Assembly: GCF_008329945.1 (NCBI RefSeq)
Contig: NZ_CP035807.1
Location: forward strand, 2,542,001 to 2,606,000
Reading direction: 5' to 3'
DNA length: 64,000 bases
Source: Thiospirochaeta perfilievii
GTDB taxonomy: Bacteria > Spirochaetota > Spirochaetia > DSM-2461
Shown here: positions 7,154-18,036 of the stretch, in pieces
Layout of the letters: every line of letters begins with the position of its first letter
Position numbering within the stretch: the first letter of the stretch is position 1
Program-made: the position numbers and the translations under genes
Notes under the pieces: generated by a model
Told to the model about the DNA's origin: nothing
The model's database searches: none
Seen by the model: only the letters and a program-made list of their open reading frames with translations

Positions 7154-7477
7154 ATGATTGCAGACATTGATCTAATAAAAAAAGATATCACAGAAAGACT
7201 AAAGGTTTTAAATCCTGAAAAAATTATCTTGTTTGGAAGTTATGCCTACGGTAATCCATCAGAAGATAGTGATCTGGATATTTGTGTTGTTGAAGATAAG
7301 GTAGAATCAAAAATTGCAGAAAAAACTAAAATTAGGGCTCTACTAAAAGATATACGAGTTTCTAAAGATATTATTGTTTCATATAAAGAAGAGTATGATT
7401 TTTACAAAACTCAGATAAATTCAGTGTTCTATGATATTGAGACTAAAGGTGACTTATTGTGGCAGAGAAATTCTTAA
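7154..7477 (+). CDS. mntA: MNT-type nucleotidyltransferase (antitoxin of MNT/HEPN pair)
   Basis: 107 aa minimal nucleotidyltransferase. GSYAYG at 28-33 and DSDLD at 38-42 form the GSxxxG...DxD catalytic core. In characterised pairs the MntA enzyme AMPylates a Tyr in the HEPN partner and so blocks the toxin. The stop overlaps the HEPN start by 19 bases, a typical arrangement. A start at 7154 gives the expected N-terminal helix. Confidence 0.8.
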   Translation: MIADIDLIKKDITERLKVLNPEKIILFGSYAYGNPSEDSDLDICVVEDKVESKIAEKTKIRALLKDIRVSKDIIVSYKEEYDFYKTQINSVFYDIETKGDLLWQRNS

Positions 7478-7854
7478 AACAATATGAGCTTTTAATAAAT
7501 AAAGCAAAAGTAGATTTAAAAGTAGCCAAAAACATCTTAAGAGATTTTAACAATGGTGACGATGAATTGGATCTTGAAGTTGTTATGTTCCACTTACAAC
7601 AATCAACAGAAAAGATTTTAAAATCAATCTTAGATTTAAACAGTATAAAATTCCCTAGAACCCATGATATTGAAGAGCTAATTAACCTCCTGAAAGAGAG
7701 TAAAATAGACCTAAACTATAACACTATAGATAAACTTATTGTCCTCTCTGATTATGCAGTAGAAGGCCGGTATGGTTTGATACATGATGATATGCATGAT
7801 ATTGATCTATTTATTGGTATTATTTCGAACTTATTAGATAATATAGGTTATTAA
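7459..7854 (+). CDS. HEPN-domain protein (ribonuclease toxin of MNT/HEPN pair)
   Basis: 131 aa all-helical protein. FHLQQSTEKILKSIL at 45-59 is the usual HEPN second helix. THDIEELINLL follows, and Arg104-His109 (RYGLIH) forms the RX4H ribonuclease motif near the C-terminus. The neighbouring nucleotidyltransferase overlaps its start. The pair should form a type VII toxin-antitoxin module. Some HEPN proteins of this subgroup lack RNase activity, so function is by analogy. Confidence 0.78.
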   Translation: MAEKFLKQYELLINKAKVDLKVAKNILRDFNNGDDELDLEVVMFHLQQSTEKILKSILDLNSIKFPRTHDIEELINLLKESKIDLNYNTIDKLIVLSDYAVEGRYGLIHDDMHDIDLFIGIISNLLDNIGY

Positions 7855-8473: not shown

Positions 8474-8892
8474 AAGCATTTAACAAAGCAAAAGAAGGTA
8501 CACTCAATGCAAGTAATACTGTTCATAGTGCTAATCGTTCAGCGAGAGAAAAACTAAGTCTTGTTATAGAATCCAAGTCCTTATCGTAAGAAGATGAAGG
8601 TCGTTGGCTTCGTGAAAAAGGATTGCACTCAGAGCATATAACTTTATACGAACAGGAACTGAGAGACATGGTGGAAAATAAAAAAGATTCAGAAAAAGAG
8701 ATTAACAAGAAGTTGAAAATAGAGAATAAAAGATTGGGGAGAGAGCTTAAAAGAAGCCAGGCTGCACTTGCGGAAATGGCTGCGCTTTATACGCTTAAAA
8801 AAAAAGCGGAGGAACTTTGGGGGGCAAAGAGGAAGATTGATCTCTACGGATCTAAGGAGGTCTGCTGTGGAATTAATAACAGTAGCTACTGA
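8473..8892 (+). pseudogene. IS3-family OrfA fragment (element B), 5'-truncated with internal stop
   Basis: The frame reads GTLNASNTVHSANRSAREKL, LVIESKSLS, a TAA at about 8587, then EDEGRWLREKGLHSEHITLY and AALAEMAALYTLKKKAEELWG. This is the coiled-coil OrfA of an IS3 subgroup whose proteins usually end near LWG(E). The 5' end abuts the intron fragment at about 8473. The stop codon and missing start show it is inactive. The A9 run at 8799-8807 may have been a frameshift site, but OrfB has its own plausible start. Confidence 0.75.
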
Positions 8893-9462
8893 AACTGGTG
8901 CTCGTTTACGTGAAGCTTGTAAGGCGATGGAAATATCTACAAGTTCCTTCGAACGTTGGCGAGCTGGTAATCTTATTGATTCTAGAAAAGGATCTGTTAA
9001 AAACATACCCCAAAAGTTAACTTACGAAGAAGAACAAGAACTAATTAACCTCTGTTGTAATAAGCAGTACAAAGATTTAAATCCTTACAAGATTCATGCT
9101 TCTTTGCTAGATAAAGGTGTCTATATAGCCAGTATAAGCTCGTTTTATCGAGTTTTAAGGAAAAATAGTCTAATTACACACCGCGGTAATTCACGCCCAT
9201 CAAAGAAACGTAATCCTCCACTCGAAAGAAAAGCGACAGGACCTAATCAAGTTTGGACTTGGGATATTACCTTTTTAAAAACAGATATAAGTGGTCTCTT
9301 TTATTATGCATATGTAATTATTGATATTTGGAATAGGAGTATCGTGAAATGGGCTATTCATGATAGAGAACATGATACACTTGCTCAAGAACTATTTCAG
9401 TGTGCTCTACTTGAGAATCAGCATCCTGATGTTTTTGTACATTCAGACAATGGTAATCCTAT
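8837..9462 (+). pseudogene. IS3-family OrfB fragment (element B), 3'-truncated
   Basis: Probable TTG start at 8837. TGARLREACKAMEISTSSFE at the N-terminus is the HTH of this OrfB group. TWDITFLKT carries the first catalytic Asp. YVIIDIWNRSIVKWAIHD and VHSDNGNPMKG follow, with the second Asp. The coding sequence ends at about 9462, where it joins DUF438 sequence on the opposite strand, so the third catalytic Glu is missing. It is a different subgroup from element A and inverted relative to it. Confidence 0.8.
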
Positions 9463-9465
9463 GAA

Positions 9466-9642
9466 AGGAGTTTCTTTTATTAAAGACTGCTCAATATTAG
9501 CAATTTCTTCAGGACTTATATCCCTAATAAGTTTATCAAACTTTTTCTTAATTGTTTTTATATCTGAACCTTCGTTGAGATTTTTTACAATCTCCCGTAA
9601 CTTAGCTTCTTTTTCTCTGTTATTCCCAATTCCTTCACCCAT
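9466..9642 (-). pseudogene. DUF438-domain protein, N-terminal fragment cut by IS3 element B
   Basis: From the ATG at 9642 (AAAGGAG 9 bases upstream) the frame reads REIVKNLNEGSDIKTIKKKF, then LIRDISPEEIANIEQSLIKE, after which it runs into the IS3 element. This is the first helical domain of DUF438 proteins, which normally continue with hemerythrin and PAS domains and are linked to NO or redox stress. The remaining several hundred residues are absent from this window. A GTAAC palindrome lies 62 bases upstream. The neighbour upstream in the same direction is the Crp/Fnr regulator. Confidence 0.72.
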
Positions 9643-9703
9643 ATGTAAACTCCTTTGGATAATTGTTTTCTATTATAAACTAATATCGAATAGCAGAATC
9701 ACC

Positions 9704-9719
9704 CGTAACAAATGATACG
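9704..9719. promoter_or_regulatory. Crp/Fnr-type palindrome, copy 2 (GTAACA-AA-TGATAC)
   Basis: CGTAACAAATGATACG, extended by C/G on both sides. Its reverse complement (GTATCATTTGTTAC) is identical over 14 bases to copy 3 at 15061-15074. It sits between the Crp/Fnr stop and the DUF438 ATG, so it most likely controls DUF438. Confidence 0.65.
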
Positions 9720-9736
9720 GAATTATGAATATATTG

Positions 9737-10342
9737 CTAAATAAAGATTTTATCCAGTTTATCCTCGTTGATAATCCTGATTTCATTATTTTTGTGTGAA
9801 ATAACACCCTCTGATACTAAGTCGGAAATAGATCTGGATAGAGCCTCTCTGGAGCATCCTAAACTAGATGCCAGATCGGATATAACAACTTCTTTAATTG
9901 TTAAATTATTATTTTTAGTTATAAGAAATATCAATTTTTGTTTTAGGGTTTTAAAGGATAATAATTCAATTTTATCTGTAAGACCTAACATTTTATTTGA
10001 TATTCCATAGAGAAATGATTCAAGATTTTCTCTCATCTTTAGATATTCAAATATTTTAACTTCTGAAATTTCTTTTACAACGGTCTCTTCTTTTGCGATA
10101 ATCCAGCCGGGATAATTGATATTTAGAAAAACTATAAGTTCAGCATACGTTTCCCCAGCAGTTATTTCTTTTAATACAATCTCTTTTCCCGAAGGGAGAA
10201 CTCTGCATATTTTTACAGAACCTGATTCAACCCTACCCATGGAATAGCATATATCTTCAGAGGTGTGAATTACATCACATTTTGAATACTTTTTCTCTAT
10301 CCCATTTTCAAATATAGAGTCATTCCATGTTCGTTTATTCAT
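9737..10342 (-). CDS. Crp/Fnr-family transcriptional regulator
   Basis: 201 aa. Residues about 20-110 are a cyclic-nucleotide-binding-type beta-roll (GSVKICRVLPSGKEIVL, GETYAELIVFL), followed by the long dimer helix and a winged HTH. The recognition helix is CSREALSRSISDL. Its SRExxxR pattern (Arg, Glu, Arg) is the one Crp uses to read TGTGA, unlike Fnr's ExxSR. No N-terminal Fnr cysteine cluster is seen. It is the last gene of the permease operon (3 bases after the upstream stop). Position beside hcp, cupin and DUF438 makes an HcpR-like nitrosative-stress role plausible. TGTGA and GTAAC palindromes around it are candidate targets. Confidence 0.85.
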   Translation of the reverse strand: MNKRTWNDSIFENGIEKKYSKCDVIHTSEDICYSMGRVESGSVKICRVLPSGKEIVLKEITAGETYAELIVFLNINYPGWIIAKEETVVKEISEVKIFEYLKMRENLESFLYGISNKMLGLTDKIELLSFKTLKQKLIFLITKNNNLTIKEVVISDLASSLGCSREALSRSISDLVSEGVISHKNNEIRIINEDKLDKIFI

Positions 10343-10344
10343 TA

Positions 10345-10995
10345 TTATTTACCCCTTGTTAGTACTATACACCCTGCTAAAGTTTTTTCACCATCAATAA
10401 TAGCATTTCTAAAAGCATCACAACTACTAAATCCACAACCTCCACAATTCAGGTTTGGAAGTTCTATCCTCTCTTCTTCTTTATCCTCTTCTTTTATATC
10501 ACTTCGCTTTACTAGTTTTTCTGTTAGTAAACCAATACCTAAAACAGCAGGAATTGTAAGGAAGAATCTTGTAAGAGAGAACTGTAATCCAAGAAACTGG
10601 ATTTCAACCATTAGCATAGGTATCTTTATTACAGCCCAGGAACTTAGGATTATAACCATATTTGAAATAGAAGCCCCTTTCTTAAAGAGAACCAGAGCTG
10701 CAGGAAATGCTGCATATATAGGACCGGCTGAAACAGACCCTATTAAAATAGAGAGAAAACGACCTTTTATACCTGCTTTCTCACCCAATCCTTTCTGAAT
10801 AGTTTTAGATGGAACCCATACTGTTATTAATGCCGAGAGAATCATAACAGGAGGAAGAACCTGAATCATCTCTGCAAGGAAACCTTTTGTAATTCCAATA
10901 GCATTAAAAAATATTTCTCTGTTAAAAATAAAAAATACTATATATAACAACCCTGCTAATATTAAAAATTTAAACTGTTTAATTTTTCTTATCAT
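10345..10995 (-). CDS. YraQ-like half permease with C-terminal Fe-S motif
   Basis: 216 aa. About four to five membrane helices, with GSVSAGPIYAAFPAALVLFKKGAS at about 87-110 typical of the DUF318/YraQ permease family. After a charged linker (160-180) a short tail holds Cys184, Cys187, Cys192 and Cys209 in CGGCGFSSC...C, the spacing of the 4Fe-4S domain of RnfB/CO-dehydrogenase type (PF04060). The fusion suggests transport gated by, or feeding, an iron-sulfur centre on the cytoplasmic face. The ATG overlaps the upstream permease stop by 4 bases, so the two halves form one transporter. Substrate unknown. Confidence 0.75.
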   Translation of the reverse strand: MIRKIKQFKFLILAGLLYIVFFIFNREIFFNAIGITKGFLAEMIQVLPPVMILSALITVWVPSKTIQKGLGEKAGIKGRFLSILIGSVSAGPIYAAFPAALVLFKKGASISNMVIILSSWAVIKIPMLMVEIQFLGLQFSLTRFFLTIPAVLGIGLLTEKLVKRSDIKEEDKEEERIELPNLNCGGCGFSSCDAFRNAIIDGEKTLAGCIVLTRGK

Positions 10996-11468
10996 AATAA
11001 TAACCCCATGAAAAACGCAATTATAAGAGCCATGGCAAAGCTTATACTGTTTCGTACAATGGCAAACTTCTTCCCGAAGTGTCTTACTTCGATAGGAAAT
11101 GTTGCAAAACCAACCATAGTTAATGTTGTTAGAAATGCTGCAAGGGATACAAGATGAGCTCCACTCACATAGAGGGATTTAGTTAGCGGGAATGCAATAA
11201 AAGCCGGCATTATTGTTAAGGTTCCAATTAAAGCACCGTAAATTGTGCTTAGTATTGTACTCCCTCCACCTAATATATCCTTAATAATTTCAGGTGGAAG
11301 AAGTGCAAGAACCAGACCTACAATTGCCATAACTCCGGCAACCTCTACAATTGTTCCAAGAAACATTTTTTTAGCAATTTGTACTGCCTGCTTACTTCTA
11401 CTTCTACTTTTAATAATAGAAACAACCAGCAGTATTACCGCCAATACAATCATAATAACTGTTGTCAT
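10992..11468 (-). CDS. YraQ-like half permease, partner subunit
   Basis: 158 aa. Helix 1 at 2-18, a basic cytoplasmic segment SIIKSRSRSKQ, then about four helices. FLGTIVEVAGVMAIVGLVLALLP-type sequence and IGTLTIMPAFIAFPL are the first-half signature of DUF318 permeases, which in other bacteria are one double-length protein. Ribosome site AAAAGGAG lies 5-8 bases before the ATG. It is first gene of the three-gene unit permease-permease-regulator. A TGTGA-N6-TCACG site is centred 66 bases upstream of the ATG, which would place a class II start about 25 bases before the ATG. Confidence 0.7.
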   Translation of the reverse strand: MTTVIMIVLAVILLVVSIIKSRSRSKQAVQIAKKMFLGTIVEVAGVMAIVGLVLALLPPEIIKDILGGGSTILSTIYGALIGTLTIMPAFIAFPLTKSLYVSGAHLVSLAAFLTTLTMVGFATFPIEVRHFGKKFAIVRNSISFAMALIIAFFMGLLL

Positions 11469-11526: not shown

Positions 11527-11542
11527 TGTGATCCTTGTCACG
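11527..11542. promoter_or_regulatory. Crp-type palindrome TGTGA-TCCTTG-TCACG upstream of permease operon
   Basis: Perfect TGTGA/TCAC arms with 6-base spacer, overlapping the end of the cupin gene and 60 bases upstream of the permease ATG. It matches the Crp consensus and the SRExxxR recognition helix of the regulator encoded at the end of the same operon, so autoregulation is likely. Confidence 0.6.
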
Positions 11543-11858
11543 TTTTAGGAGTTTTTACAACAAGAACTCTAAGAATTTCTGTATTGCTGAAATTTTCTAT
11601 AGCATGGGGTATATCCTTTGGACTCTCAATAAGTGAATCTGATTCTACTGCAATACGTTCATCTCCAACTTCTATCCATGCTTTTCCTTCCAGTACATAG
11701 AAAAATACATCAACCGGAGTTGTGTGTGTATCAAGTCTAGCTCCTGGGGTAAGAGTAATATGGTTAGCAATTGTCTCATTATAATCGTAAATTCTTTGAC
11801 CTTTTACTCCGTTCTTCTGTACAACAACTTCAGCTTTGTTTACTGGTGTTATTTTCAT
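11538..11858 (-). CDS. Cupin-domain protein
   Basis: 106 aa single cupin. GARLDTHTTPVDVFFYVLEG corresponds to cupin motif 1 and DSLIESPKDIPHAIENF to motif 2 with its His. Likely metal ligands are His in TPGARLDTHT and PHAI. Small cupins of this type bind a transition metal and may act as dioxygenase-like or sensor proteins. Strong ribosome site AAAGGAG is 8-9 bases upstream. It follows the ferredoxin membrane protein by 14 bases, so they share a transcript. Substrate cannot be given. Confidence 0.8.
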   Translation of the reverse strand: MKITPVNKAEVVVQKNGVKGQRIYDYNETIANHITLTPGARLDTHTTPVDVFFYVLEGKAWIEVGDERIAVESDSLIESPKDIPHAIENFSNTEILRVLVVKTPKT

Positions 11859-11872
11859 AATTTAAATCTCCT

Positions 11873-12505
11873 TTATTTTGTAATATTACAAACCTTAACT
11901 GGACATGCTTCAATGCACTGGTAGCACATAAGGCACTCCTGCTTAAGATTAAATCGCTTTTTATTTTCCTTTGTTGATATAGATTCAGATGGACAGACTT
12001 TTTGGCATTTACCACAACTTATGCAGTTGTTTTCATCTATATTCATTGATATTGTGGACTTTCGTGATGTTAATGATAGAATGGTTCCAAATGGACATAC
12101 CGCTTTGTGCCAGAAAGACTCTTCTATAAAAAGTGTTATAAAAACTGATAGAATAACAACATAGAGTAGTATATTTATTTTTATATGAATCACTCTTACA
12201 GCTACCATTGATACAACAAATAAAATCAGAAAAAGATACCTTAACCAGGTTTTAGATAGTATAACGGGAGGCTTCAACCGTTTTATTTTAAATTTTCTGT
12301 AAATAAAATCTATAGGCCTGAATAGAGTATTCATTGGGCAGATCCAACCACAATAATATCTACCTATAATAGTCGAAAGTATTGTCCCAATAAGAAAGAT
12401 TCCAAACCATAACTGAAGTTTGTTATTTATAGTTAGACCTATAAAAAAAACTAGAAAAAATACTTCAATTACTGTTCGTAATTGATTAATGGCTTTTAAT
12501 TTCAT
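11873..12505 (-). CDS. NapH/MauN-type membrane ferredoxin (4Fe-4S binding protein)
   Basis: 210 aa from the ATG at 12505, chosen because GGAGG lies 8 bases upstream; a longer frame to 12526 lacks a site. Three to four helices lie within 10-130, with the conserved membrane motif YCGWICPMN at 51-59 and CPFG at 137-140. Two 4Fe-4S motifs follow: Cys161/164/167/171 and Cys191/194/197/201, both closing with CP. NapH-like proteins carry electrons between quinol and a soluble redox protein. Directly downstream of hcp, it may supply electrons to Hcp; that is inference. Confidence 0.85.
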   Translation of the reverse strand: MKLKAINQLRTVIEVFFLVFFIGLTINNKLQLWFGIFLIGTILSTIIGRYYCGWICPMNTLFRPIDFIYRKFKIKRLKPPVILSKTWLRYLFLILFVVSMVAVRVIHIKINILLYVVILSVFITLFIEESFWHKAVCPFGTILSLTSRKSTISMNIDENNCISCGKCQKVCPSESISTKENKKRFNLKQECLMCYQCIEACPVKVCNITK

Positions 12506-12552
12506 AGCAATCCTCCAATATAACAATTATATGCGCTATTGAAAGATTACTG

Positions 12553-12568
12553 TGTGATATATATCACG
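12553..12568. promoter_or_regulatory. Crp-type palindrome TGTGA-TATATA-TCACG upstream of ferredoxin gene
   Basis: Same arms and spacing as the site at 11527-11542, including the final G. It lies between the hcp stop and the ferredoxin ATG (27-48 bases upstream). Two identical half-site pairs within one kilobase, both before genes of the same locus, support a shared regulator. Confidence 0.6.
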
Positions 12569-12573
12569 GTAGG

Positions 12574-13197
12574 CTAATTAATTTTATCACCCCAATCATC
12601 ATCAACATTGGTTGTGTAACTAATATTGAACTTATCTACAAGGAAATTAACAATATCATCATTGAAGAATTGTGCCTGCTTAGGACCAATTTTGATATTT
12701 TGAATTCCCAGACTAAATAATCCTAATAATATTATAACAGCTTTCTGCTCCATCCACATTAGTTGTATGTTGATTGGTAACTCATTTACAGGAGTTTTAA
12801 GTGCATCACTTAAAGCAAGAGCAATCTCAACAGCCCCATAGCTGTCATTACACTGTCCTAAATCAAGGTAACGTGGAATTTCTGTTCCAGGGACATTTCC
12901 AAAATCAATATCATTAAACCGGAACTTACCACAACTTGAAGTTAACAATACTGTCGTTTCTGGTAGTCTTGATGCAAGTTCTCTAAAGTATTCTCCATCT
13001 TTACCTGGAGCATCACAACCAGCAATAACAAAGAAATTTTTGATCTGGCCTTTGTCTACAGCATCGAGAATTTGAAGAGCCAGAGATAAAATAGTTTTAA
13101 AGCTATGGCCTGTCATAACCGTTTCGTCAGAATCAAATCCTTCTGCATCTGGTAGTTCTAAAGTTTGAGCTATAATTTCAGAGAAATCATCATTATT
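12574..13197 (-). pseudogene. hcp: Hybrid-cluster protein (Hcp, hydroxylamine reductase), C-terminal fragment
   Basis: The frame is open from about 13197 and includes FSEIIAQTLELPDAEGF, FFVIAGCDAPGKDGEYF, LLTSSCGKFRFNDIDFG, YLDLGQCNDSYGAVEIALAL and LMWMEQKAVIILLGLFSLGI. These hold three cysteine ligands of the hybrid Fe-S-O cluster and its EQKA glutamate. Hcp reduces NO or hydroxylamine and protects against nitrosative stress. Full proteins have about 530-550 aa; only about 207 remain, preceded by reverse-transcriptase sequence in place of the N-terminal 4Fe-4S half. An internal ATG at 13116 could give a product, but it could not build the N-terminal cluster. Confidence 0.88.
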
Positions 13198-13452
13198 TAT
13201 ATATTTGATACCTTCAATTTAAGAAAGTCACTGACGATGTTTTTCAAATCTTCTGCAATTTCTTTCGTATTTGCAGTAATTATGAAGTCATCAGCATATC
13301 TAATAAGATTGACTTTCATCTTTGCTTTAAAGTGGTTCCCTATATTACCTTTTGAGTTTCTGTGATATTTATCCTGAATAATCTTTTCAAGACCATCTAA
13401 TGCAATATTAGCATATAGGCTTGATATCGATCCACCTTGTGGACCCAGAGAT
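13198..13452 (-). pseudogene. Group II intron reverse transcriptase/maturase, internal fragment
   Basis: Reads GPQGGSISSLYANIALDGLE, then VNLIRYADDFIITA and a stop shortly after. The (P)QGG motif of RT block 4 and the YADD catalytic box of block 5 are present; fingers, thumb and maturase domains are missing on both sides. It joins hcp at about 13197 and a transposase-like fragment at about 13452. It is on the same strand as hcp, opposite to the intron-like RNA region at 14625. Confidence 0.8.
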
Positions 13453-13564
13453 GTATGCTTTTACATGCTGGACATTCTGGAGGTTTTATCCATTTAAATT
13501 TTTTTCCTTCTTCTTTAAGAAGTTTTAAATTTACCCGATAATAAAGTATCAAATGGTCATTCAT
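13453..13564 (-). pseudogene. Transposase-like N-terminal fragment (zinc-ribbon type)
   Basis: From ATG 13564: MNDHLILYYRVNLKLLKEEG, then a Trp/Lys-rich stretch and PPECPACKSIHLW, after which the frame passes into RT sequence. CPxCxSxxLW followed by GHG is the usual start of a transposase group with an N-terminal zinc ribbon (DUF6431-like). Only 37-40 codons remain. Confidence 0.45.
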
Positions 13565-13578
13565 TTGTTTGGAATTTT

Positions 13579-13616
13579 AAAAGAGCTTCGGTCTTCAAAC
13601 TTGGAAGCTCTTTTTT
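13579..13616. terminator. Rho-independent terminator-like hairpin
   Basis: AAGAGCTTC pairs with GAAGCTCTT around a loop of about 14 bases, followed by TTTTTT on the plus strand and AAAA/TTTT on the other side. It lies in transposon debris; which transcript it ended is unknown. Confidence 0.6.
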
Positions 13617-13852
13617 ATCTAAAGTGGGGAATTCTGGTTTCCATCACCTGAGGAATTTAGATTACCATTTCCAACTTTCTATCATAGCATCGTTAAATGT
13701 ACTTTTTCAGTATATATCATTAAAACTCTAATTGTTTCTTATGCAAAGTAAAGAAAAATGAACAAAACTTAAACTAACAAATTGCCTAATCAGAATATAA
13801 AGATGTATAATAGAATAAGAATGAATAATAAAGAATAAATAGGAGTATTTAT
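13617..13852. other. Non-coding spacer before the RHH/RelE module
   Basis: No coding frame of note. AT-rich sequence leads to the antitoxin ribosome site (AGGAG at 13841-13845). TAATAGAATAAGAATGAATAATAAAG just upstream may hold the promoter and operator, without a clear inverted repeat. Confidence 0.3.
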
Positions 13853-14095
13853 ATGGCTAAAACAGTAACCATGAGAATTGATGATAACACATATAATTTA
13901 ATTAAAAATGCAGCAACTGGGGAAAGAAGGTCAATTTCAAACTTTATTGAATACGCAACCATGGCTTATTTAGCAGAAGAAAGCTTTATTTCTGATAAAG
14001 AAATGGATGAAATCCTTAACGATAAGGATTTACTTGTAAACCTTAAAAATGGAAATGAAGAAATTGAATCTGGGAAGTATAGAATAATTGAATGA
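13853..14095 (+). CDS. RHH-type antitoxin of RelE/ParE module
   Basis: 80 aa. TVTMRIDDNTYNLIKNAA is a ribbon-helix-helix strand-helix of the CopG/RelB-like antitoxins, and RRSISNFIEYATMAYL completes the second helix. The C-terminal half is acidic, as needed to wrap a toxin. It overlaps the toxin gene by 8 bases, and AGGAG stands 7 bases before the ATG. It should bind the toxin and repress the operon. Confidence 0.8.
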   Translation: MAKTVTMRIDDNTYNLIKNAATGERRSISNFIEYATMAYLAEESFISDKEMDEILNDKDLLVNLKNGNEEIESGKYRIIE

Positions 14096-14360
14096 TTTTA
14101 AAATTGCTGAAACAAATAGTTTCGTTAAAAAAATAAAAAAATCAGAATATAAAAGGTTATACAAAAAGATAGAGACTTATGTTTATCCGATACTTAAACG
14201 TAATCCCTATTTTGGTCCCAATATCAAAAGACTAAAGGGAGAATTTTCAGAATTCTATAGATATAGAATTGGGGATTATAGATTGTTCTATAAAATAGAA
14301 GAAGATAAAATTCTGATATTTGTTGTCGATATAAAGCATAGAAAAGATGCTTATAATTAA
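14088..14360 (+). CDS. RelE/ParE-family toxin
   Basis: 90 aa. IKRLKGEFSEFYRYRIGDYR and LFYKIEEDKILIFVVDIKHR are the central beta-strand and C-terminal signature of RelE/ParE toxins, with catalytic-type Arg and His near the end (RKDAYN tail). The start is probably TTG at 14088 within the antitoxin's last codons. The family cleaves ribosome-bound mRNA (RelE) or poisons gyrase (ParE); sequence alone does not choose. Confidence 0.82.
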   Translation: MNDFKIAETNSFVKKIKKSEYKRLYKKIETYVYPILKRNPYFGPNIKRLKGEFSEFYRYRIGDYRLFYKIEEDKILIFVVDIKHRKDAYN

Positions 14361-14610
14361 TTATTGAATTATAAAATATAAATGGCATAAATAATTATTC
14401 TGGATATATTGTAGTCGGATTATTAATAAATGATTTTCCTAATACTAGTAAAACAGAAATAAAGGATTCTAGAAAATATTGAATATGAAAATTATGTAAC
14501 AGAATTTTATGATGATTTTGATAAAACCTTAAGAATAGATATTATGGTTCCTGACGAATCATGGAGTAATATTGTATAAAGATAGAGGTATAATAAAAAC
14601 ATGGAATTGA
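14361..14610 (+). other. Decayed coding remnants, unrecognised
   Basis: Two short open stretches in different frames: one reading IVVGLLINDFPNTSKTEIKD (to a stop at about 14480), the next ILENIEYENYVTEFYDDFDK and LRIDIMVPDESWSNIV (stop about 14579). The second looks like a genuine protein C-terminus. I do not recognise it. The overlap of frames suggests one frameshifted gene remnant. Confidence 0.3.
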
Positions 14611-14905
14611 CAAAATCTTTGTCAGTGTGCCACGAAGGCATACTTTATATATAAGTAGCTATGCTACAAAACAGATGAGGGTAGATCCATCGGAATCGGC
14701 TTACAGGAGTAGGTTTCAAACCACCAAAAAATGCTGTGGTAAAGAGCCATGGTGGCGAGCGTTTTGGAAAAGGTTATAGCATGACTATAATCAGGTATGA
14801 TTTGAAGAGACGAATGATTGAACCATCATAGAGGTGACTATTAAGAATACTAATATTGTAGTTTAGGCGTATGTCTAGGTTCTAATTGTATCCTTTTAAT
14901 AAAAA
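14611..14905 (+). mobile_element. Probable group II intron 5' ribozyme region, fragment
   Basis: After a TGACAAA-ATC-TTTGTCA stem-loop (about 14607-14624) the sequence begins GTGTGCCACGAAGGCA, agreeing with the GUGYG 5' end of group II introns. A structured, GC-richer stretch with several hairpins follows, unlike the flanking DNA. There is no reverse transcriptase or domain V afterwards on this strand, so only the 5' part survives. Identification rests on the 5' consensus and composition, not on a full fold. Confidence 0.45.
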
Positions 14906-15059
14906 CAAAAGATAAAGCGAAGCTTTACACATTAGGTTAGTGATTGGTAGGGTTGCTTGCAAAACCCATACCTTGGGTTCGAAGCGATAGCGTAGCCCGT
15001 GAATGAACGACCCAGTTTACTGGGTAACCCCCAAATATTTTTAAATAAACTATATAACC
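14906..15059. other. Non-coding mobile-element flank with CCCAGT-TT-ACTGGG hairpin
   Basis: No gene. Contains a perfect 6-base inverted repeat at 15011-15024 and GAAGCGATAGCGTAG-type sequence resembling an intron or IS end. This is the right boundary of the accessory island: the regulated operon begins immediately after. Confidence 0.35.
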
Positions 15060-15108: not shown

Positions 15109-16334
15109 ATGAATAGCGAAATTGAAATTAAACTAACAGATACACTCTTTACAATTACCCAGAGGTATCCTGAAACAATAGATCTTTTTGTTGCAAATGG
15201 TTTTCCTCAAATGGAGACAGCTTCAAAAAGAGAAACTATGGGTAGTGTCATAACCTTGGATATGGCAATGAAATCCAAAAATAAAAACTCAAAACTATTT
15301 TTACAACTTTTAAAAGAGGTTATAAATCAAAAAAAAGATATGGCAGATGAGGGAGAAGGGATTAATGACTTCTCTAACTCCTGCGATATAGCTGGAGTAC
15401 TCCCTTGCCCTGTAAAAATACCCCTACTTGATGGCTTTAAAACATTTTCTAAAGAGTACTATAAACAGCATGGAAACGGAATTAATTATAGATTAAAGTC
15501 CGCTTCAGGGGGATCTCTTGGCTTGAAGATGAGGTACGGGATGCTAAAGATGAAACAGAAATCCCCGACCTATTTATATCTGCAGGATTTGAACTCTTTT
15601 TTGATAAAAAGTTAATTGGAAAGTATAGGGATCAGGGTTTATTCCACGACATGTCATCTCTAGATAGCTTTAATAGCTGTTATAGTGGATTAGACCTAAA
15701 GGATCCTAAGGGAAACTACTCCATATTAGCCAGCGTTCCTGCAATCTTTTTAGTTAATACCGAGGAGTTAAATGGTAGAAAAAGACCCGAAACATGGGAT
15801 CAGTTACTATCAGATGACTTTATTAATTCAATAGCACTACCAGTAGAGGATTTAGACCTATTTAATGCTGTACTTCTAACACTGTATAAAGAGAAGGGGT
15901 CAGAAGCAATTAAGTCTTTAGGAAGAAATATGCTTAGCTCAATGCACCCGGCACAGATGGTTAAAAATAGCGGGAAGTCAGAGGATAAGCCAGCTGTTAC
16001 TGTCCTTCCTTGGTTCTTTACTAAAATGGTATTCCCTGGGACATCCCTAGAAGTTGTCTGGCCAACAGATGGTGCTATTTTAAGTCCAGTATTTATAGCA
16101 GCAAAAAAAGATAAAAAAAATGAATTAGAAGATATTGTTCACTACTTTGAGTCTGAGAGTGTGGGGGAAATTCTACGGGATAAGGGATACTTCCCATCAG
16201 TTAATCCAAATATAGATAACCGAATACCAAAAGATAATAAATTTAGGTTTTTAGGTTGGGATTTTATATATAACAACGATATTACAGAGATTATAAATAT
16301 CTGTATGGATCTATTTAACAAGGCGGTTATATGA
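15109..16334 (+). pseudogene. DUF1858 plus periplasmic-binding-protein-like protein, apparently cytoplasmic (one-base frameshift)
   Basis: Two frames make one protein of about 408 aa. Residues 7-45 (TLFTITQRYPETIDLFVANG) form a DUF1858 domain. From about 88 (DIAGVLPCPVKIPLLDGFKT) a type II solute-binding-protein fold begins, continuing in the other frame with IPDLFISAGFELFFDKKLIG, PETWDQLLSDDFINSIALPV and WPTDGAILSPVFIAAKKD. The switch lies in GGGGG at 15508-15512: one more G restores the frame. There is no signal peptide, so the binding fold should face the cytoplasm, which is unusual. It heads an operon with a GTPase, an ABC ATPase and a Cys-rich protein. The frameshift may be a sequencing error, since all else looks intact. 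Confidence 0.72.
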
Positions 16335-17047
16335 AATTAGTAACATTTTCAGGTCCTCCATCATCAGGGAAGACCTCGGTTATATTAAAAACAATAGACT
16401 CCCTAAGAAAGAGGGATATAACACCGGCAGTAGTAAAATTTGACTGTCTTTATACAGATGATGATGTTCTATATAGAAAAGCTGGAGTTCCTGTAAAAAA
16501 AGGGTTATCAGGGAGTCTCTGTCCAGACCACTACTTTGTATCAAATATAGAAGCAGTTGTTGACTGGGGGCTAGAGAATAATTTTGACCTTTTAGTATCA
16601 GAATCTGCAGGTCTATGTAATAGATGTTCCCCATATATTAGGGATATAAAAGCGATCTGTGTAATAGATAATCTCTCTGGTATAAATACACCTAAAAAGA
16701 TCGGCCCAATGTTAAAAACCGCAGATATTGTAGTTATAACAAAGGGAGATATTGTAAGCCAGGCAGAGAGGGAAGTATTTGCTTCTAGAGTTCAGGCAGT
16801 AAATCCTAAGGCTATTATATTAAATGTAAATGGTTTAACAGGTCAGGGCTGTTTTGAACTAAGTACACTTCTAACAGAGAGTATGGAGGATGTTGTATCA
16901 TTAAAAGGGAAAAAACTAAGGTTTAGTATGCCATCAGCTCTATGTTCCTACTGTTTAGGTGAAACCAGGATTGGTGAGAGTTACCAAATGGGTAATGTTA
17001 GAAAAATAGACCTAAAAAAGGATGATAACAAAGGGGGAGAACATTGA
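16331..17047 (+). CDS. SIMIBI-class GTPase, HypB/UreG/CobW-like, with two Cys pairs
   Basis: 238 aa. P-loop GPPSSGKT at 8-15. The G3-like segment SESAGLCNRCSPYI at 90-103 carries a CNRC pair. TKGD at 137-140 replaces the usual NKxD, and CSYC at 205-208 gives a second pair. The organisation resembles HypB, UreG and CobW GTPases, which deliver metals or clusters to target enzymes; the cysteines suggest metal binding. It overlaps the stop of the DUF1858 gene by 4 bases and the ABC ATPase start by 4, so all are made together. A role as maturation GTPase for a metal or Fe-S protein is inference. Confidence 0.75.
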   Translation: MKLVTFSGPPSSGKTSVILKTIDSLRKRDITPAVVKFDCLYTDDDVLYRKAGVPVKKGLSGSLCPDHYFVSNIEAVVDWGLENNFDLLVSESAGLCNRCSPYIRDIKAICVIDNLSGINTPKKIGPMLKTADIVVITKGDIVSQAEREVFASRVQAVNPKAIILNVNGLTGQGCFELSTLLTESMEDVVSLKGKKLRFSMPSALCSYCLGETRIGESYQMGNVRKIDLKKDDNKGGEH

Positions 17048-18036
17048 GTCCAAGTAATAACACAATTAAACAACTGTTAGAGAAATACCCCTTTTTAGTC
17101 AGTTTTTTAGAGGATAATAATATTAATTTTCTAGGAAATGAGGATAAAACTTTAAGGGAGATAATTAACCTATTAGATAAGGATGAGCAGGAAGAGCTTG
17201 CAATAAATATTGGTCAACTAGAGGAAAATTTAGAAGAGTTTATTGACCAGATGTCTGCATTTTTATCAGATGACGATGAAGAAGTTCACTCTATAACAAT
17301 TTTTCCAGGGACAGATAAATCTGGAGCTCCAGAAAATTATAAAAGCCTTGAATTAAAAAAAGGGGAGATAGTCTGTATTGTTGGACCAACTGGTTCCGGG
17401 AAGAGTAGACTTTTAGGAGATATAGAGTGGGTTGCCCAGTGTGATACCCCGACTAATAGAAGGGTTTTAGTTAATAATGAACAACCAGATAGTAAGTGGA
17501 GGTTCTCAATCTCCGACAAGTTAGTAGCCCAGTTAAGTCAGAATATGAATTTTGTAATGGACCTAAGTGTAGAGGAGTTTGTAACTCTTCATGCTGAGAG
17601 TAGGATGATAGAAGATATTGAAGAGACTGTTAAAGTAATTATTGAGAATGCCAATGATCTAGCAGGGGAGAGATTCTCTAAGGATACTCCAATAACAAGT
17701 TTAAGTGGTGGACAGTCAAGAGCTCTTATGATTGCAGATACTGCCCACTTAAGTAGATCCCCGGTTATTCTAATAGATGAGATTGAGAATGCAGGGATCG
17801 ATAGAAAGAGGGCGTTAGATCTACTGTTAGCAGAGGATAAAATTGTACTTTTAGCAACCCATGATCCAACTCTAGCACTTTTAGGGAACAGAAGAGTTGT
17901 AATAAAAAATGGTGGAATTGATAAAATAATAGAAACATCAGAAAAGGAGAGGGAAATCCTATCCGAACTTGAGGTTTTAGATAAAAGACAAGCCGAGTTA
18001 CGAAATGCCCTAAGGCATGGAGAAAAACTAAGATAG
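17044..18036 (+). CDS. ABC-type ATPase with N-terminal DUF1858/ScdA-like domain, no permease partner
   Basis: 330 aa, TTG start with AAAGGGGGAG upstream. Residues 7-45 (TIKQLLEKYPFLVSFLEDNN) are a small helical domain like DUF1858 or the ScdA N-terminus. The ATPase follows: Walker A GPTGSGKS at 114-121, signature LSGGQSRAL at 220-228, Walker B VILIDE at 241-246 and H-loop His273. A coiled coil ends the protein (about 300-325). No membrane gene is in the operon, so it may be a soluble ATPase that acts with the GTPase and the binding-protein-like partner rather than in import. The shared DUF1858-type domain on both proteins suggests a common target. Confidence 0.78.
   Translation: MSPSNNTIKQLLEKYPFLVSFLEDNNINFLGNEDKTLREIINLLDKDEQEELAINIGQLEENLEEFIDQMSAFLSDDDEEVHSITIFPGTDKSGAPENYKSLELKKGEIVCIVGPTGSGKSRLLGDIEWVAQCDTPTNRRVLVNNEQPDSKWRFSISDKLVAQLSQNMNFVMDLSVEEFVTLHAESRMIEDIEETVKVIIENANDLAGERFSKDTPITSLSGGQSRALMIADTAHLSRSPVILIDEIENAGIDRKRALDLLLAEDKIVLLATHDPTLALLGNRRVVIKNGGIDKIIETSEKEREILSELEVLDKRQAELRNALRHGEKLR

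Follow-up and report, generated by a model that had tools for sequence, protein, structure and literature searches.

In Thiospirochaeta perfilievii, two overlapping genes encode the halves of a permease of the ArsP_1/COG0701 type, and the second half ends in a four-cysteine iron-sulfur (Fe-S) motif. The genes lie within a 64,000-nucleotide stretch (NZ_CP035807.1, positions 2,542,001 to 2,606,000 of the forward strand), referred to here in full as the window. Judged by sequence, such Fe-S-fused split permeases are a conserved family with two tail types, found here in anaerobes, and the placement of two different Fe-S modules at the same spot suggests that electron movement is part of how the transporter works. 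Our best reading, put forward tentatively, is that the operon encodes a stress-induced, redox-coupled transporter with a built-in electron-transfer partner.

The split permease and its C-terminal tail

The features of the locus are collected in Table 1. The order of transcription on the minus strand runs from the hcp fragment through the NapH-like gene, the cupin gene, half 1, half 2 and the Crp/Fnr gene to the DUF438 fragment, such that the two permease genes, both on this strand, overlap by 4 bases (10992-10995) and the end of half 2 lies 2 bases from the start of the regulator gene. In the Pfam scan, residues 31-178 of half 2 match ArsP_1 (PF03773) with 54 bits against a cut-off of 32.3, and the residues that follow match the FeS family PF04060 with 45.8 bits against a cut-off of 23. 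The cysteines of this tail are spaced as CxxCx4Cx16C, the same spacing as in PF04060 and RnfB. Searched against the PDB with a profile of five sequences, half 2 gave hits to RnfB (7zc6, E 4e-4) and to corrinoid Fe-S proteins alone, all of them over the tail.

Table 1 Features of the operon and its flanks (positions within the window)
Feature	Position	Strand	Detail
DUF438 gene, 5' fragment, after the regulator	9418..9642	-	PF04282, E 3.4e-12, profile positions 1-44 of 67
Crp/Fnr-family regulator	9737..10342	-	201 aa; cNMP_binding + HTH_Crp_2; recognition helix GCSREALSR
Third GTGAN6TCAC palindrome, within the Crp/Fnr gene close to its start	10265..10278	.	
Half 2, permease + C-terminal Fe-S tail	10345..10995	-	216 aa
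PF04060 FeS site of half 2 (predicted)	10366..10461	-	residues 179-210; Cys184/187/192/209; E 4.8e-12
Half 1, ArsP_1/COG0701-type permease	10992..11468	-	158 aa; no Cys
Operator-like palindrome GTGATCCTTGTCAC, upstream of half 1	11528..11541	.	pattern search
Small cupin (Cupin_2)	11538..11858	-	106 aa; Pfam match
NapH-like membrane ferredoxin protein	11873..12526	-	Fer4_5 + 4Fe-4S dicluster
Operator-like palindrome GTGATATATATCAC, upstream of the napH-like gene	12554..12567	.	pattern search
hcp (hybrid cluster protein), 3' fragment	12574..13218	-	profile positions 312-517 of 522 only
Group II intron remains, hcp side of the operon	14677..14796	+	RF01999, E 4.8e-19

A first-pass annotation, made from the letters of the window alone, had described two half permeases that overlap by 4 bases, a second half ending in four cysteines with RnfB-like spacing, and a transporter with an Fe-S motif of its own, cotranscribed with a Crp/Fnr regulator. 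The open reading frames, the PF04060 and RnfB matches and the 2-base gap bear out these descriptions in turn, the last of them as tight gene order. Conservation of the four cysteines had been named as the check on the motif, and it holds: all four are kept in 4 of 4 relatives ranked closest by a whole-protein search across 98 genomes, and in 32 of the 33 rows of a clade defined by the membrane part alone, which spans Spirochaetota, Thermotogota, Bacillota and Thermoplasmatota. An alignment of 31 of 32 PF04060-type proteins (L060 was left out, its start being unclear) has the four cysteines in 31/31, a count that is partly by construction because the rows were chosen by cysteine pattern. The variability of the remaining tail columns is not a product of that selection, and between residues 160 and 216 the only columns at 31/31 are Leu179 and the four cysteines. 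The membrane core, with its invariant AGPIYAAFP stretch and residues W120/A121/K124/M127, is more conserved than the tail linker. The spacing and the matches suggest that a [4Fe-4S] cluster is held by the half-2 tail. A structure model of half 2 has a mean pLDDT of 85.8, with low confidence in the tail (block means 50-76), and a fold search of this model against the PDB, in which the Fe-S tail and the N-terminus were barely covered, returned nothing at E <= 0.001. The Gut sorbitol transporter 9x2m was set aside as a fold relative of half 2, the match being too weak (Foldseek E 0.95; VIA-align Z 6.3, rmsd 4.1, 139 aligned).

Half 1 scores 29.6 bits against ArsP_1 in the Pfam protein scan, just below the cut-off, and 37.8 bits, above it, in a six-frame genome search; by sequence, its search against the PDB gave two chance-level matches only. 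The two halves are homologous to one another (hhalign probability 96.3%, E 1.6e-9), and in 80 of the 81 loci described below a separate half-1 frame ends no more than 600 bases from where the half-2 frame starts, the exception (L062) being cut by the contig end. The halves occupy two genes and not the single chain by which a member of the ArsP_1 family would be recognized. Tail-less pairs of half size are common in related genomes, so that the split by itself is ordinary and the two-gene form does not remove the pair from the family.

Charged residues give an indication of topology. In five pairs the distribution of K+R is opposite, loop by loop, between the halves: in half 1 both termini are free of K+R, 6-7 follow the first membrane segment and 2-3 precede the last, and half 2 has 3-5 at the N-terminus, 2-4 after its second segment and 1-4 after its last. 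Combined with the helix pair 72-88/93-105 of the model, if this pair is a re-entrant hairpin, the opposite patterns would make the halves antiparallel and place the tail in the cytosol, which is the most likely arrangement.

Both outer genes of the operon are broken. The hcp fragment (open reading frame 12574-13116, profile match 12595-13218) is broken off at about 13218 and lacks its promoter, with the intron remains lying beyond; mobile-element frames lie where the DUF438 fragment ends, and of these 8113-8526 matches an integrase core. The frame at 8768-9715 also has an integrase-like look by eye, and a second group II intron match (RF00029, 8397-8475, minus strand) overlaps the integrase-core frame. 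Further out on this side, overlapping nucleotidyltransferase and HEPN genes at 7154-7854 form a typical MNT-HEPN pair. Past the hcp break, the interval 13218-15040 holds a small two-gene pair at 13853-14360 that looks toxin-antitoxin-like by eye, and 15109-18036 encodes in a row a DUF1858 protein, an SBP_bac_6 solute-binding protein (profile from position 38), a CobW-type GTPase and an ABC ATPase, the first two of which may be a single gene broken between 15615 and 15651.

Two tail types at one position

Relatives were collected by scanning contigs with a five-sequence half-2 alignment, and the best 80 of 262 were kept, giving 81 loci with the window; the scan hits include tailed pairs in Clostridium tepidiprofundi and Acetobacterium wieringae. 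When classes are assigned by cysteine pattern, 32 of the 81 half-2 proteins have a PF04060-type tail, 47 have a ferredoxin-type tail and 2 have neither; since the scan was ranked with a query carrying the PF04060 tail, the 79 tailed proteins of 81 are not an unbiased frequency in nature. The ferredoxin-type tail is unrelated to the PF04060 type and starts at the same place as the tail in the window, and all three examples scanned exceed the Pfam cut-offs of Fer4_13 and Fer4_15. Of the two proteins with neither tail, L062 sits at a contig edge and lacks the third cysteine, and L114 ends after the membrane part.

A tree of the membrane part separates the two types. The PF04060 clade contains 33 rows, L062 included (SH-aLRT 96), and the ferredoxin clade contains 48 rows, with the tail-less L114 among them (SH-aLRT 93); 20 tail-less halves from related genomes fall beyond a branch with SH-aLRT support of 96. 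This is a quick tree, in which the 20 tail-less rows come from 25 loci (5 were dropped, having no match to the pattern) and have long branches among them, that of L023 reaching an absurd length of 10. The simplest reading of the two clades would be two separate fusions, or one fusion followed by one replacement.

Cysteines elsewhere in the proteins also differ between the types. In the window, half 1 and half 2 have zero cysteines outside the tail, and the last 150 residues are free of cysteine in 74 of the 80 half-1 proteins and contain it in the other 6. A cysteine directly after AGPIYAAFP is present in 36 of the 47 ferredoxin-type half-2 proteins (for example L096, L101 and L082) versus 6 of the 32 PF04060-type proteins, and therefore the absence of membrane cysteines is not a rule of the family. 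No relative was found in viral contigs, and PADLOC gave no match for five operon proteins. A literature search by titles and abstract openings, covering few subscription papers, recognized no Fe-S-fused permease of the ArsP_1 family.

Regulator, operators and neighboring genes

The exact palindrome GTGAN6TCAC occurs three times in the window, all within the operon, compared with 0.35 expected, and 1 of 100 shuffles reached three. Each of the four closest relatives has the same pattern before half 1 or before the NapH-like gene. Across the 81 loci, the 3 kb upstream of half 2 contain GTGAN6TCAC in 10, the window included, and these are exactly the 10 whose regulator has an R-E recognition helix; none of the other 71 has it over the same distance. 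A second palindrome, GTAACN4GTTAC, lies within 3 kb upstream in 16 of the 81, of which 11 have an R-P helix, 1 an R-S helix (L115), 2 an unreadable regulator and 2 none, and 15 further R-P loci are without the exact pattern. Four control palindromes in the same 81 loci gave counts of 1, 0, 0 and 0. Because the loci are related to each other, the 10 and the 16 operator loci are not independent events. At least three tail-less loci (L033, L042 and L045) also carry GTGAN6TCAC.

These patterns point to HcpR. Rodionov et al. (2005, PMC1274295) gave the HcpR operators as wTGTGAnnnnnnTCACAw in Desulfovibrio and GTAACnnnnGTTAC for HcpR2, and tied them to two positions of the helix. In the half-2 loci, operators and helix code agree with those published there. 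HcpR-type operators are found in 26 of the 81 loci, and in the window an R-E helix goes with GTGAN6TCAC, the matching pair expected of an HcpR regulon. The main HcpR targets named in the parts of the two reports considered here are hcp and the ferredoxin-like frdX (PMC1274295, PMC12915319), and for C. difficile the portion of the second considered here names these two alone as direct targets.

What else might the regulator in the window control? The whole genome contains 15 GTGAN6TCAC places, compared with 42 for a reversed-pattern control, and 3 of the 15 are in the operon. The other 12 all overlap open reading frames as called, and 0/12 lie at the intact hcp gene (545 aa), which is encoded elsewhere in the genome together with a second hcp-like gene. 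An exact HcpR2-type site, GTAACN4GTTAC, precedes the start of the intact hcp by about 60 bases (L048, 1421-1434), and because this is the other operator type, the regulator in the window is probably not the regulator of hcp. It probably serves mainly its own operon. At two of the 12 places (L150 1501 and L151 1501) the palindrome is at the extreme 5' end of the called frame and could be a promoter site if the true start lies inward; the L151 frame may encode the redox repressor Rex, which it resembles.

Matches within 3 kb in the 81 loci comprise Crp/Fnr (59), cupin (25), NapH-like (15), DUF438 (11), hcp (10), PadR (8), hemerythrin (5) and TetR (4). These counts use profiles built from the loci themselves, of which only 47 extend 3 kb in both directions. 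The NapH-like protein of the window matches the NapH/MauN subfamily with E 1.2e-23 and 83.9 bits, under the curated cut-off of 213. The first-pass annotation had placed the transporter next to hcp; the association recurs in the 10 loci counted above, the fragment in the window among them, and the link is weaker here than annotated, the neighbor being only a 3' fragment two genes away. In 22 loci no Crp/Fnr match lies within 3 kb; 12 of these have a PadR- or TetR-type match and 10 neither, some on short contigs, and a single signal shared by all is therefore not certain. Inspection of the other neighbor clusters by eye yielded no recurring Rnf or CODH gene, and as hints to a substrate it gave only clusters at scattered places, each present in at most 9 loci (9 for an ABC ATPase, 5 for a small ferredoxin).

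A proposed redox-coupled transporter, its rivals and its relatives

The ArsP_1/YraQ family is widespread, and to our knowledge most of its members have no assigned substrate. What, then, would an Fe-S cluster contribute to such a transporter? We hypothesize that the two genes form one ArsP_1/COG0701-type transporter of two homologous and most likely antiparallel halves, in which the tail of half 2 would hold a [4Fe-4S] cluster that faces the cytosol. This cluster would give electrons to, or take them from, the transported compound or the working transporter, in whichever direction transport may run. The operon would be switched by its own Crp/Fnr-type regulator through the GTGAN6TCAC sites. 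Its inducing signal would most likely be a redox stress, nitrosative or of another kind, and the transporter may work together with the cupin and the NapH-like ferredoxin. The most specific form of this proposal, an antiparallel heterodimer in which a cytosolic Fe-S cluster, carried as a fusion on one of the two halves, supplies the electrons that drive or complete transport, is possible and, on balance, doubtful.

The rationale for an electron-transfer partner draws in part on the full-length relatives. In 61 related genomes, 46 TIGR00412 thioredoxin-like hits exceed the cut-off and, among the matches listed, 42 of the 46 have a full-length ArsP_1 permease at most 2 kb away (a raw count); conversely, of the at least 75 full-length permeases among the matches listed, 42 have such a thioredoxin within 2 kb and 33 do not. 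One of these pairs, a full-length ArsP_1 gene beside a TIGR00412 thioredoxin-like gene, is in the same genome as the window (C1:392516-393674, L001). Earlier work had described the thioredoxin-like protein within ars operons and suggested that it partners ArsC (PMC2963123). In our model, the fused cluster takes the place of the small thioredoxin whose gene lies next to that of many full-length relatives.

The main rival, which we judge unlikely, treats the cluster as a sensor: NO, oxygen or a shortage of iron would alter it and thereby open or shut the transporter. PF04060 and ferredoxin sites could equally sense, and Crp/Fnr regulators with HcpR-type operators, as well as hcp and DUF438/hemerythrin matches near some loci, would suit such a role. 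However, many full-length relatives are paired with a thioredoxin and not with a cluster, and two unrelated electron-carrier modules occupy the tail position; PF04060, ferredoxin and thioredoxin have electron transfer in common, and for this reason coupling to electrons is preferred over sensing. Should the pair instead be an ordinary ArsP-like exporter of organoarsenicals or metals, with an Fe-S tail that has no direct role in transport, neither the scarcity of cysteines, absent outside the tail in the pair of the window and over the final 150 residues of most half-1 proteins, nor the retention of the tail across phyla would be expected, and no ars gene recurs among the neighbor clusters inspected by eye. 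Membership of ArsP_1 is in keeping with this improbable account, the cysteine after AGPIYAAFP, frequent in the ferredoxin type, could bind a soft metal, and there are NCBIfam matches far under their cut-offs, of half 1 to SaoE (20.9 bits, cut-off 325) and of half 2 to the SO_0444 Cu/Zn exporter (23 bits, cut-off 300), neither of which qualifies either half for those families.

RnfB is a membrane-tethered carrier of the PF04060 module, and its match to the tail, together with the NapH-like genes near 15 of the loci, would fit a permease part that is a mere membrane anchor, placing a ferredoxin by the NapH-like protein or Hcp in an electron chain without transport. We consider this quite improbable: conservation is higher in the membrane core than in the tail linker, nearly every locus retains half 1, and 66 of the 81 loci have no NapH-like match within 3 kb (only 47 having 3 kb on both sides). 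The first-pass annotation had suggested export or import tied to redox state or to a cluster component. The tie to redox state has become likely, since two unrelated Fe-S modules share one site, full-length relatives have thioredoxin partners and the operators are of the HcpR type; the cluster component fared otherwise. For the pair to move iron, sulfide or persulfide, with the tail as handover site, is very improbable: the Fe-S tail itself, and the stress able to break clusters that HcpR-type operators imply, would be consistent with it, but by eye no iron, iron-uptake, sulfur, sulfur-carrier or cluster-assembly gene recurs among the neighbors.

If the redox-coupled reading is true, one permease family has met the same need in three ways, with a PF04060 cluster, a ferredoxin or a separate thioredoxin, and would represent a redox-coupled class of secondary transporter. 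Two unrelated Fe-S modules at one place, together with thioredoxin genes by many of the full-length forms, suggest that redox chemistry is a general feature of the ArsP_1/YraQ family, and the present pair could add a transporter to the anaerobic response to nitrosative stress.

The membrane domain of the pair is the same as that of the ArsP_1/COG0701 permeases (YraQ, ArsP and SO_0444). Full-length members, however, have the whole 294-position profile in a single chain, whereas the window divides it between two genes, with no cysteine outside the tail and with an Fe-S tail on half 2. The full-length ArsP_1 permeases found with TIGR00412 (redox-active disulfide protein 2) come from the same family and likewise have a small electron-carrier partner, which there is a separate thioredoxin-like protein and here a fused Fe-S module. 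A published relative may be CTC0897-CTC0898 of C. tetani, a predicted operon of a permease and a ferredoxin-like protein beside a divergent HcpR2 paralog (PMC1274295). Its gene order and type of regulator, as given there, fit the ferredoxin-tailed clade, to which it probably belongs; the single sentence that describes it presents two genes and does not mention a fusion, a half pair or a second tail type. RnfB and the corrinoid Fe-S protein of CO dehydrogenase contain the same four-cysteine module as the window, in host proteins that differ from this split permease.
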